Source of the DNA: Candidatus Saccharimonadota bacterium
GTDB lineage: Bacteria; Patescibacteriota; Saccharimonadia; Saccharimonadales; Saccharimonadaceae
Direction of reading: 5' to 3'
Length of the DNA: 32,249 nucleotides
Assembly (NCBI GenBank): GCA_009787015.1
Contig: WRGU01000045.1
Location: forward strand, 1 to 32,249
The translations under genes were made by a program, and so were the position numbers. The stretch's first letter is position 1; each line of letters opens with the position of its first letter. The notes beneath the pieces are model-generated. The model was given only the letters and a program-made list of their open reading frames with translations. It did not search any database and was not told the DNA's origin. This document shows, piece by piece, positions 3,052 to 29,414 of this stretch.

Positions 3052-3873
3052 ATGATGTCCGACATGAGCAAAATAAATTGGGATATGATACAGGGCGTCG
3101 ATCGCGAGCGTCCGGCGGAACTACAAAATCGTTGGGACGCGGCGCTAGGTGAAACGGCGATGACGCTTTTTCCGGGCGTGAATTGGGGGGGGGTTGATTT
3201 AGTCGCTGAGCTCGAAAAACTGACTCACGCGAATTTTCATCGTGAACACGAAAAATTAATTCTCGGGCTTAATGGTCCAGGCGCATCGGGTAAGGGCACG
3301 TTTGGGCGTCATATTCTGACAACTAAAGGTTATCTGAAAATCGTCAATGACACAACCCGCGCCAAGCGCGATGGCGAGGTTGAAGGTGAAGATTATTATT
3401 ACATCAGCGAGGAAGAATTTTTTAAACGGCGCGATGCGGGCGAATATTTAATGACTCTCGAGCGGCCAGGTCGCGGTTGGTATGGCACACGAATCAGCGA
3501 AGTTGCTCTAAAACTGGCGCAATCCAGGAAGGGTGTCTTGTTCGAGGATAATCCGGAAAATCAAATAAAATTATTTAACAGTGATTTTATTAGGGAACAA
3601 AAGAATGTTGATCTGGCGACAATGGAGATTTTGCCGCGAACACCGCTCATCGAAACATCGATCATTCAATTGCAAAAACGCCTATCGGAAGAACCTGATC
3701 CGGCAAAACGAATTCTCACCCAACCGGTTTTCGAGGCAACTCTCGGCGACCGGCAAGTCGACGAATTCATGCATTTCGAAAAGTTAGCGCAACAGCCCGG
3801 CGTCCAACCCGTTGTCGTAATGAGCGGCGACGCCGATCGTGCCAAACATTTGATCGATCGCCTGCCACTCTAA
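3052..3873 (+). CDS. divergent guanylate-kinase-like P-loop kinase
   Basis: P-loop GLNGPGASGKGT; DTTRAKRDGEVEGEDYYYISEEEFFKRRDAGEYL resembles the GMP kinase TRPPRxGEVDGxDYxFxSxEEF region. The track ORF begins at 2890, but the start is more likely ATG 3052 (or 3064) because 2890 lies inside rarA. Confidence 0.75.
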   Translation: MMSDMSKINWDMIQGVDRERPAELQNRWDAALGETAMTLFPGVNWGGVDLVAELEKLTHANFHREHEKLILGLNGPGASGKGTFGRHILTTKGYLKIVNDTTRAKRDGEVEGEDYYYISEEEFFKRRDAGEYLMTLERPGRGWYGTRISEVALKLAQSRKGVLFEDNPENQIKLFNSDFIREQKNVDLATMEILPRTPLIETSIIQLQKRLSEEPDPAKRILTQPVFEATLGDRQVDEFMHFEKLAQQPGVQPVVVMSGDADRAKHLIDRLPL

Positions 3874-16373: not shown

Positions 16374-16400
16374 AGCAAGAAGAGCAACTGACTGCTCCAA

Positions 16401-16426
16401 ATCCCCGCAAAAACGGGGATTTTTTG
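16401..16426 (+). terminator. Rho-independent terminator after rplO
   Basis: ATCCCCG-CAAAAA-CGGGGAT followed by a T-tract; identical core to the terminator after rpsI. Confidence 0.88.
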
Positions 16427-16453: not shown

Positions 16454-16482
16454 TTGCATTTTTTTGTAAAGTGTGCTATAAT
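16454..16482 (+). promoter_or_regulatory. extended -10 promoter
   Basis: TTGCAT - 17 nt - TATAAT with TGTGC preceding the -10 box. Confidence 0.75.
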
Positions 16483-16525
16483 GGTAAGAGAAGATAATGT
16501 TAATTTTAGAAGTTTAGGAGCAAAT

Positions 16526-20654: not shown

Positions 20655-20746
20655 CGTCCTATCTTACCATTATATTTTATATAATGGTTCGTATATTCGG
20701 AAAATTGTGAATAAATTCACATTTTCACTCATATCCTCCCATTATA
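20655..20746 (-). ncRNA. candidate structured 5' leader upstream of the cysK-like gene (copy B)
   Basis: Minus strand: GAAAATGTGAATTTATTCACAATTTTC hairpin (20700-20726) and CCATTATATAAAATATAATGG hairpin (20667-20687), with the same flanks as copy A. Confidence 0.6.
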
Positions 20747-20769
20747 GCACACTTTAATCAAGAAGTCAA
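20741..20769 (-). promoter_or_regulatory. promoter of the cysK-like transcript
   Basis: On the minus strand: TTGACT - 17 nt - TATAAT (extended TGTGC). Confidence 0.8.
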
Positions 20770-25332: not shown

Positions 25333-25356
25333 TTTTACGAGCACTGACCGCTCTAA

Positions 25357-25381
25357 ATCCCCGCAAAAACGGGGATTTTTT
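25357..25381 (+). terminator. Rho-independent terminator after rpsI
   Basis: ATCCCCG-CAAAAA-CGGGGAT then T-tract. Confidence 0.88.
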
Positions 25382-25423
25382 GAGTGTGTAACAGAGGTGG
25401 AGAAAAATCTCGCGTTTACCCTA

Positions 25424-25452
25424 TTGCTTTTTTTATTAAAGTGTGCTATAAT
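25424..25452 (+). promoter_or_regulatory. promoter of the typA transcript
   Basis: TTGCTT - 17 nt - TATAAT, extended -10 TGTGC. Confidence 0.78.
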
Positions 25453-25545
25453 GGTAGGATATGAGTGAAAAGAAAACTCGTTTTCTTTTCCGAATAGACG
25501 CCCCATTACATGGGTGCGAAGCAGCCATATAATGGCAGGATAACC
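25447..25545 (+). ncRNA. candidate structured 5' leader upstream of typA (copy A)
   Basis: Hairpin 1 GAAAAGAAAA-CTCG-TTTTCTTTTC (25467-25490); hairpin 2 CCATTACATGG...CCATATAATGG (25503-25535); paralogous to 20655-20746. Confidence 0.6.
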
Positions 25546-27681: not shown

Positions 27682-29319
27682 ATGAAGAAATTAAATTACA
27701 AAGGACCAGTCGTTTTGGTGATTATGGACGGCGTGGGTTTGAGTTCGCATCGCGAAGGCAACGCGCTACTGCAAGCCCATACAGAAAACTTGAACAAATT
27801 AATGACGGATTATCCGTTTCTCGAAATCGGCGCATCGGGCAAATACGTTGGTTTGCCGAACGGACAAGTGGGAAATTCAGAGGTCGGACATTACGTCATG
27901 GGTTCGGGTGTGATCCCGAAATCATCGATCATGTTGGTCGATGACGCGTTCGCAACCGGCGCGATTTGGCAGGGTGAAACTTGGAAGTCGGCGGTCAAAA
28001 ACGTGTTCGATCACGATTCAACAATGCATTTTATCGGCATCATGAGCGACGGTCGAGTACACGGCGACATGTACCACATGTTCAAAATGATCGAACAGGC
28101 CGACAAAGAAGGCATCCAAAAAGTTCGCGTGCATTGGTTGAGTGACGGACGCGACGTGCCGGCGCGTTCTGAGCCGAAATATTTGAACATCGCCGAGGAA
28201 TTTTTGGGCAAATTCTGTGCCAAGGGGCGCGATTACATCATCGCCAGCGGTGGCGGTCGCGAATTTGTCACAGCAAACCGTTACTGGAGCGATCCGGACA
28301 TGTTAAAACGCGGTCTCGCGGCGCACGTCAACGGCACAGCGCGTCCGTTTCGTTCGGCGAATGAGGCAATCCAGACTTTCAAACAGGAAAATTCCGAAGT
28401 CGACGATCAATGGCTGCCGGAATATACTATCGTTGACGAAAATGGTCAGCCCGTCGGCAAAATGGAGGATAATGACACGGTTATTTACAACGATTTCCGC
28501 GCCGATCGCGCTATTCAATTCGGCGAAATGATGGAACTGCCAGATTCAGAATTTCCGTATTTCGATCGCGGTAAATTACCGAAAGTTTACTATGCTGGCT
28601 TGGTGGAATATGATCAGGATCGTCATCTGCCATCACATTCGTTGGTTGGAACTGATACCGTCAAAGATCCGTTGGCGGAGTTTGAAGTGAATAGCGGTTT
28701 GCATCGCTATGTGATTTCTGAATCAATCAAGTTTGGTCATGTTACGTTTTATTTCAACGGCAACAAGAAGGGCAGATTTAACGACGATACGGAAGAATAC
28801 GTCGACGTCCCGAATAAAATCAGCGCGCAACCTTGGCAATCGCCATGGATGCGATCGGATGATATTACTGATCAATTGATCGATGCCATTAAATCGGGCA
28901 AATATCAATCAATGTTGATTAATTATCCAAACGGCGACATCATCGGTCACGAAGCGATTATGGAACCCTGTATTGTGGCGGTCGAAGCGGTCGACATCGC
29001 TCTCGGTCGTTTGATGCGAGCGATCGACGAAGTCGGCGGCGTGATGCTGATTACGTCGGATCACGGCAATGTCGAAGAAAACTTTTATCTCGACGAAAAC
29101 GAAGTGCCGAAAAAAGACGACACGGGCGAAGTTATGCGCAAAACCTCACATTCGAGCAACCCGATTCCGTTCATTATCTATGACAACACCGAAAATCGCG
29201 ATAAATACGAACTGAAAAAGGGCGATTTCGGATTGGCGAACGTGGCGTCAACCGTCGCCCTGTTTGAGGGTCTCGAACCGCCATCGCAGTGGGAAGAGCC
29301 GCTGATCGACCTTAAATAA
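27682..29319 (+). CDS. gpmI: 2,3-bisphosphoglycerate-independent phosphoglycerate mutase
   Basis: VVLVIMDGVGLSSHREGNAL, GLPNGQVGNSEVGH, HWLSDGRDVPARS, LITSDHGNVEENF. Confidence 0.93.
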   Translation: MKKLNYKGPVVLVIMDGVGLSSHREGNALLQAHTENLNKLMTDYPFLEIGASGKYVGLPNGQVGNSEVGHYVMGSGVIPKSSIMLVDDAFATGAIWQGETWKSAVKNVFDHDSTMHFIGIMSDGRVHGDMYHMFKMIEQADKEGIQKVRVHWLSDGRDVPARSEPKYLNIAEEFLGKFCAKGRDYIIASGGGREFVTANRYWSDPDMLKRGLAAHVNGTARPFRSANEAIQTFKQENSEVDDQWLPEYTIVDENGQPVGKMEDNDTVIYNDFRADRAIQFGEMMELPDSEFPYFDRGKLPKVYYAGLVEYDQDRHLPSHSLVGTDTVKDPLAEFEVNSGLHRYVISESIKFGHVTFYFNGNKKGRFNDDTEEYVDVPNKISAQPWQSPWMRSDDITDQLIDAIKSGKYQSMLINYPNGDIIGHEAIMEPCIVAVEAVDIALGRLMRAIDEVGGVMLITSDHGNVEENFYLDENEVPKKDDTGEVMRKTSHSSNPIPFIIYDNTENRDKYELKKGDFGLANVASTVALFEGLEPPSQWEEPLIDLK

Positions 29320-29322
29320 CCG

Positions 29323-29414
29323 GTGGGTAATTTCAAAAAATAGACACTACCTGTAGTGTGCGTGTGGGTAATTTCAGATTTTCGACACTACAGGTAGTGT
29401 GTTAGTGGGTAATT
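29323..29414. repeat. tandem repeat, period 41 bp, about 2.2 copies
   Basis: GTGGGTAATT at 29323, 29364 and 29405; palindrome ACACTACCTGTAGTGT in unit 1 and its exact reverse complement ACACTACAGGTAGTGT in unit 2. Confidence 0.92.

Follow-up and report, generated by a model that had tools for sequence, protein, structure and literature searches.

A dispersed, structured hairpin element with a site-complementary arm at promoters and RNA genes of Saccharibacteria

Two copies of an insert at a stock promoter

Why should cysK and typA, which are functionally unrelated, be preceded by the same promoter and the same pair of hairpins? Both genes lie in the window, i.e., the whole 32,249-nt stretch of Saccharibacteria DNA analyzed here, and the original prediction had offered two readings, a structured cis-regulatory leader or a promoter-carrying mobile palindrome. 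The two copies are real and as described, at positions 20667 to 20769 of the minus strand (cysK) and 25424 to 25545 of the plus strand (typA), and a repeat search of the window recovered them as an inverted repeat pair of 48 nt with 90% identity. They have in common ATTAAAGTGTGCTATAATGG(T/G)AGGATATGAGTGAAAA, with one mismatch in 37 nucleotides. In both, the promoter leads directly into GGNAGGATATGAG, hairpin 1, CCGAATANACG, CCATTA, hairpin 2, and another TATAATGGNANGATA; downstream of hairpin 1, the sequence reads TTTTCCGAATA(T/G)ACGNNCCATTA, followed by the second hairpin and by ATATAATGGNANGATA. The stems of hairpin 1 differ between the copies yet pair in both, as had been noticed.

Upstream of typA, a strong sigma-70-type promoter (TTGCTT-17-TATAAT) occupies positions 25424 to 25452 of the plus strand, with the −35 box TTGCTT at 25424 to 25429, a 17-nt spacer, and the −10 box TATAAT at 25447 to 25452. 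The left copy of the target (A, TATAATGG; 25447 to 25454) forms the 5′ strand of a stem, P1, which covaries across copies and pairs here with 25503 to 25508. The conserved core (25455 to 25500; R2 match, 7.7e-16) consists of AGGATATGAG, a bulged T, a hairpin at 25467 to 25490, and CCGAATAGACG, and column counts place two tandem G-A motifs in it. The complementary arm (A′, CCATTA; 25503 to 25508), assigned from sequence, fold, and alignment, is both the 3′ strand of P1 and the left arm of hairpin 2, which carries a GC(GAA)GC tip (25509 to 25535) and ends in the right target copy TATAATGG (25528 to 25535). On the minus strand, cysK is preceded by a promoter of the same strong type (TTGACT-17-TATAAT; −35 box at 20764 to 20769, −10 box at 20741 to 20746), the left target copy TATAATGG (20739 to 20746, within an R1 match), the core (20690 to 20738) with hairpin 1 at 20700 to 20726 (67.9 bits with R1; 3.3e-9 with R2), A′ (CCATTATA; 20680 to 20687), and the right target copy TATAATGG (20667 to 20674), which forms hairpin 2 with A′ around a loop shorter than that of typA. 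Folded as single-stranded DNA, the typA copy reaches −17.5 kcal/mol, in comparison to −6.1 kcal/mol for dinucleotide shuffles (z = −6.0), and the cysK copy has a z value of −5.1; the RNA fold of the typA copy is also stable (z = −4.7 in comparison to dinucleotide shuffles).

The typA copy contains a small open frame on the plus strand (25461 to 25532; direct translation, MSEKKTRFLFRIDAPLHGCEAAI and a stop), which begins 2 to 3 nt past the predicted transcription start and was considered as a leader peptide. This 23-codon frame is open in four of the five close copies. It is treated as probably incidental because a 4-nt indel shifts it in the copy of contig C38, with the hairpin pairs kept, and because class-B copies have no such frame.

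The first 20 nt of the shared stretch are the stock promoter of this genome, since AAAGTGTGCTATAATGG occurs with at most two mismatches at 45 places in its 858 kb, in comparison to none for the reversed-pattern control. The insert is present at just 5 of these 45 promoters, those of cysK, typA, a tRNA-Ala gene (contig C38), and two hypothetical genes (C40 and C43), where TATAATGGNAGGATA borders it on the left and a further, less constant TATA(A)ATGGNARGATA borders it on the right. The other 40 lack the element, and one element-free example, located by pattern search at 16468 to 16484 on the plus strand of the window, provides a comparison. The duplicated promoter of the original prediction is therefore shared by both loci but is not specific to them, because the same stock promoter stands at 45 places. 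The notion that the palindrome carries a promoter is largely incorrect: the promoter serves as the target, and further copies lie at −35 boxes, at terminators, and at the 3′ ends of tRNA genes and the starts of rRNA genes.

The stock promoter is a very uniform extended −10 promoter (AAAGTGTGCTATAATGGTAAGATG-like at the 45 loci, including window positions 16468 to 16484), often with a start codon directly after it. At many of the 45 sites, an open reading frame starts straight after TATAATGGTAAG, leaderless or nearly so, suggesting that leaderless mRNAs are widespread in this genome. Thirteen of the 45 stock promoters are followed, at a distance of no more than 300 nt, by a poly-G or poly-C run of 7 to 11 nt (e.g., a G9 run at window positions 3185 to 3193, and loci L004, L011, L012, L024, L026, and L035 to L038), in comparison to 8 such runs in the other ~97 kb sampled; these runs are candidates for slipped-strand phase variation of leaderless genes. 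Further repeats of the window include a tandem 41-nt repeat (29323 to 29404; 76% identical) with the palindrome CACTACCTGTAGTGTG, which is intergenic after a 545-residue open reading frame (27682 to 29319), and two terminator-like stretches of 40 nt (ATCCCCGCAAAAACGGGGATTTTTTG; 16387 to 16426 and 25343 to 25382; 95% identical) located after two different operons.

A dispersed family with a conserved core and a site-specific arm

The genome that contains the window carries three close copies beyond those of cysK and typA (C38, C40, and C43) and six or seven diverged ones, for a total of 11 to 12. An alignment of 14 copies (A1) provided the covariance model R1, which includes P1 (positives at E ≤ 0.01), and a core-only alignment of 59 copies (A3) provided the model R2, which ignores the flanking arms (positives at E ≤ 0.001). 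With model E values that are rough, and in genomes that are mostly metagenome assemblies, R1 was positive in 118 of the 392 genomes of the order, 117 of which belong to the window's own Saccharibacteria family, with up to 13 copies per genome; of the 384 phylum genomes scanned with R2, 31 were positive, with at most 14 copies each, and 22 of these belong to other, distant lineages and nine to the window's family. The exact core pattern was found in 14 GTDB stretches, all labeled Saccharibacteria or, in two cases, Nomurabacteria, and it matched none of the viral contigs. The element is therefore dispersed, and the further copies and the covariation whose absence would have refuted the original prediction both exist.

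The general layout is target flank A, the bulged hairpin core, the arm A′ complementary to A, hairpin 2, and often a second A. In A3, the core is a single interrupted stem made of a G-C pair, a tandem G-A/A-G, about 3 variable base pairs, a second tandem G-A, a G-C pair, an unpaired base, a GAAAA...TTTTC stem, and the tip. The second tandem G-A is almost invariant (57 and 56 of the 59 copies) and lies in a YGAR context. Double-sided changes fill 153 cells of the alignment in comparison to 44 ± 5 after shuffling, every slid control being far lower. On the element strand, G·T pairs outnumber A·C pairs 17 to 3, indicating that the single-strand fold is maintained on the plus strand of the element. 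Of the 53 copies with a readable tip of hairpin 1, the majority (34) have CTTG or TTTA and none has GNRA or UUCG, and GC(GNA)GC tips close several second hairpins. Tips of the CTTG/TTTA and GC(GNA)GC types are stable in single-stranded DNA. The hairpin tips favor DNA over RNA as the folded strand, short of proof.

P1 is formed by pairing between the 8 nt on either side of the core, and the stem varies by site (e.g., TATAATGG/CCATTA, TATAGCAC/GTGCTA, GATAATTC/GAATTATC, and GACCATAC/GTATGGTC). In A1, P1 is 98.6 to 100% paired, and three of its positions are changed on both sides in 7 to 8 of the 14 copies with no broken pair. Because R1 itself contains P1, the flank-pairing test was repeated on core-only matches. 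Among 66 distinct R2 matches, the longest flank-to-flank helix averaged 5.38 bp, in comparison to 2.55 ± 0.16 bp when right flanks were shuffled between copies, and the best of 2,000 shuffles reached 3.18 bp. The pairing of A with A′ is thus statistically site specific, and the arm is complementary to the 5′ flank. The 5′ strand of P1 is host sequence, namely, −10 boxes in forward or reversed (ATTATAGCAC) orientation, −35 boxes, tRNA 3′ ends with their CCA, 5S-like sequences, and the beginning of 16S rRNA (TGGAGAGTTTGAT). Alternatively, template switching at quasi-palindromes may create or mend the complementarity of A and A′, with neither guide function nor selection.

Two variant arrangements were seen. 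A partial second 5S rRNA gene that lies downstream of the intact 5S gene and holds the element inside recurs in four genera (G015, G020, and G021 at L057 to L059, and contig C22 of the window's own genome, G000, at L134), the intact 5S gene being seen in G015, G020, and G021. Enlarged cruciform copies at L319 to L326 and L331 (genera g11 and g2) combine the core stem and a right hairpin with an outer stem (e.g., GTAGGAGATG/CATCTCCTAC) and, on the left, an additional GAAC..GTTC hairpin.

Three Rfam searches, at the gathering score and at permissive E values, revealed no family that fits the element, the only matches beside copies being tRNA and 5S and 23S rRNAs, and the open-access literature yielded no account of an element of this kind from either Saccharibacteria or Patescibacteria, which is weak negative evidence. 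From Rfam and that literature, the family is apparently undescribed.

Mobility and the origin of the copies

The clean filled/empty comparison comes from a single locus, a tRNA-Cys site. In G804 and G805, this site is empty (...aaaaatggaggtgcc|TACCGGAATTG) and is continuous with the joined flanks of the filled site at 91% identity. In G212 and G349, it holds an insert of ~95 nt together with a direct duplication of ~15 bp, reading ...tggaggtgcca-TACCGTCG-core-CGATGGAAGG-TCCTCCAAAATctcAATTTTGGAGGTGCC-TACCGG in G349; insertion can thus be accompanied by a target duplication of this length. Orthologous sites differ elsewhere: the typA promoters inspected in relatives are plain, without the element, and of the 14 species of genus g7 in which the region of one particular promoter was readable, 3 have the element there and 11 do not. 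The cysK gene is missing from 30 relatives. Where one filled copy has an empty counterpart in a sister species, TATAGCATAACGACC may represent the original target or the scar of direct-repeat recombination. The element is mobile, and the inserts of cysK and typA are copies of a dispersed, structured family of mobile hairpin elements of ~80 to 100 nt. Multiple copies in multiple genomes, presence and absence at orthologous sites, and the filled/empty pair show that the predicted mobile palindrome before unrelated genes was right in essence. At the 3′ end of tRNA-Cys in G300 (L367), a ~20-bp duplication of AAAAATGGAGGTGCCTACCG brackets a short insert of different sequence, ccccttgggacgcggaaggcccggaattttcgtaag, possibly another or a decayed insertion at this hot spot.

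The right copy looks different in origin between the window's subfamily and the tRNA-Cys locus. The right copy and the nucleotides upstream of it (GCARCCA+TATA(A)ATGG) are common to three loci of the window's genome with promoter left flanks that differ from one another, the related GTAGCCG+TATAGTGG (GTAGCCGTATAGTGG) stands at a fourth, and two loci have the identical altered TATAAATGG. In the window's subfamily, the right copy looks element-borne, by analogy with the cleavage site of IS608. In contrast, the 15 bp duplicated at the tRNA-Cys gene are host sequence and are not element-borne.

No autonomous form enclosing a gene was found: when the open frames near 79 loci were compared all against all, no transposase or other protein family recurred beside the copies. 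The window's genome encodes one RAYT-type Y1 protein (contig C46, L177, positions 1332 to 1949), which was considered as the resident mobilizer and is not linked to the copies. No element copies lie near the five Y1/RAYT-type loci examined. Y1_Tnp was present in 13 of the 31 R2-positive genomes in comparison to 190 of 384 overall, with no co-occurrence and with no match at all in 18 of the 31; G458, G501, and G629, which are rich in copies, lack a Y1 transposase.

A structured 5′ leader, such as a riboswitch, an RNA thermometer, or an attenuator, that controls cysK, typA, and other genes is suggested by the five close copies, in which the folded strand is the sense strand, the hairpins directly follow a strong −10 box and form the first ~80 nt of the predicted transcript, and the RNA fold is stable (z = −4.7 for the typA copy). 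Across the family, this pattern does not hold: among 83 copies, the folded strand is antisense to both neighbors in 27, sense to both in 17, divergent in 16, and convergent in 7, the remaining copies having a neighbor missing on one side. The antisense excess, and the fact that the five close copies precede unrelated genes, leave the predicted cis-regulatory role with no general support. Sites across the family are functionally unrelated, many copies flank tRNA or rRNA genes or sit upstream of a −10 box on the opposite strand, the typA genes of relatives lack the element, and Rfam contains no match, so that we regard regulation of this kind as very unlikely. A local effect on leader structure is possible at typA and cysK, where the insert would be transcribed. 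Leader-like hairpins in these genomes should accordingly not be taken for riboswitches.

A REP-like element mobilized by the resident RAYT/Y1 transposase of contig C46 is suggested by the presence of that protein in the same genome, and bulged hairpins are typical substrates of RAYT/Y1 enzymes. The missing linkage and the missing co-occurrence across the phylum make this explanation rather doubtful, and the GTAG/CGTC tags known from REPs beside a palindrome of 20 to 40 nt (PMC3733652) appear not to describe the fold of the element. We give a similarly low weight to a transposase-free origin, in which DNA palindromes would form and multiply locally at a conserved protein-binding core through replication template switching, tandem duplication, and recombination. 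The A-core-A′-A layout, the tandem arrays with a truncated last unit (L116, L139, L295, and L334), the variable length of the duplicated flank, and perfect hairpin 2 arms made of flank sequence (L135) all fit such a process; against it, template switching alone does not bring the same core to new sites, and the core, which is strongly conserved phylum-wide, turns up at numerous unrelated positions, one of them a clean new insertion. Finally, tandem sheared G-A pairs and variable flanking arms recall box C/D guides, and TIGR systems, which are found in parasitic bacteria, consist of ~36-nt units in tandem arrays beside tas genes with two spacers that do not covary (PMC12045711). A TIGR array was considered for the tandem G-A pairs and set aside since its layout does not fit: the copies are dispersed and mostly single, their two arms are mutually complementary, and no protein family recurs beside them. 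A component of this type, or of another box C/D-like guide RNA, is extremely improbable.

We consider it probable that the family is a non-autonomous, single-strand palindromic element, mobilized in trans and equipped with a target-pairing arm, that has spread through Saccharibacteria and other lineages of the phylum. The selected strand would act in single-stranded form, most likely as DNA that is opened at replication forks or in promoter bubbles, and its core would be bound by an enzyme acting in trans. KANMA-type 5-mers (e.g., TATAA, GATAA, GACCA, and TACCA) may serve as targets with which the A′ arm pairs, with insertion just 3′ of them, and the arm would thereby direct insertion much like the guide sequences of IS200/IS605 elements. 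Insertion at a −10 box would spare the upstream promoter and add a folded leader of ~80 nt before typA and cysK, which is probably near neutral. More tentatively, and with less than even confidence, minimal protein-less elements of ~80 to 100 nt may operate phylum-wide by choosing, or writing into themselves, the complement of each site, with an enzyme-bound hairpin core and a single programmable arm, a preference for −10 and −35 boxes and for tRNA and rRNA gene ends, and a mechanism unlike that of known transposase classes.

Relation to known elements

Saccharibacteria and their relatives have very small genomes, yet a structured repeat with one and the same core recurs across far-apart lineages of the phylum, where it lies at promoters, at tRNA ends, and at the starts of rRNA genes. 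If the arm steers insertion, the element would be a very small base-pairing-guided mobile element, pointing to an unrecognized enzyme of single-stranded DNA; should insertion itself generate the arm, the arm would be a fossil record of the insertion chemistry. Either reading yields a covariance model, testable sites, and empty/filled pairs.

The element is of the REP/MITE-like kind. Similar to REPs, BIMEs, and REPINs of the GTAG and CGTC superfamilies, it is a short, dispersed, intergenic palindrome, often paired or in tandem, tolerated near genes, and probably non-autonomous; CGTC REPs likewise lack a dedicated transposase (PMC3733652). Unlike REPs, its core has YGAR tandem G-A motifs, a bulge, and the GAAAA/TTTTC stem, and it appears to follow no GTAG/CGTC tag rule. 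TAGG/GTAGG and CGACG do occur in many copies, but AACGA, AAACA, AGTGT, and others can take their position, and the fold engages the bases there in pairs. The element is also set apart from REPs as described by having an arm that complements its own host flank. Palindromes of the CGTC REP-like type (ATCCCTCGGCTTCGCTCGGGATGAC) are present in the window's genome as well, at L046, upstream of the C43 copy, and at L006, downstream of cysK.

With the ends of IS200/IS605 elements (e.g., IS608) and their miniature derivatives, the family has in common a folded single strand with a bulged hairpin and a position beside a short sequence that pairs, statistically, with an internal arm, which may guide insertion or be produced by it; in IS608, the target tetranucleotide is recognized by base pairing and can be reprogrammed (PMC5934647). 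The putative guide of the present element differs in lying between two hairpins, which appear to share it, and in a complementarity of 5 to 8 nt or more that varies by copy. IS200/IS605 elements generate no target site duplication, in contrast to the ~15 bp duplicated at tRNA-Cys, and the element has no associated Y1 gene. Bacterial MITEs and other small mobile sequences, such as RU elements (PMC2759123), are likewise non-autonomous and intergenic, with 100 to 200 bp and sometimes short open frames. Unlike MITEs, the element has no constant terminal inverted repeats, its terminal arms being site specific. Strong covariation and a conserved single-strand fold are features that it shares with the structured RNAs of Rfam, although it matches no family there.
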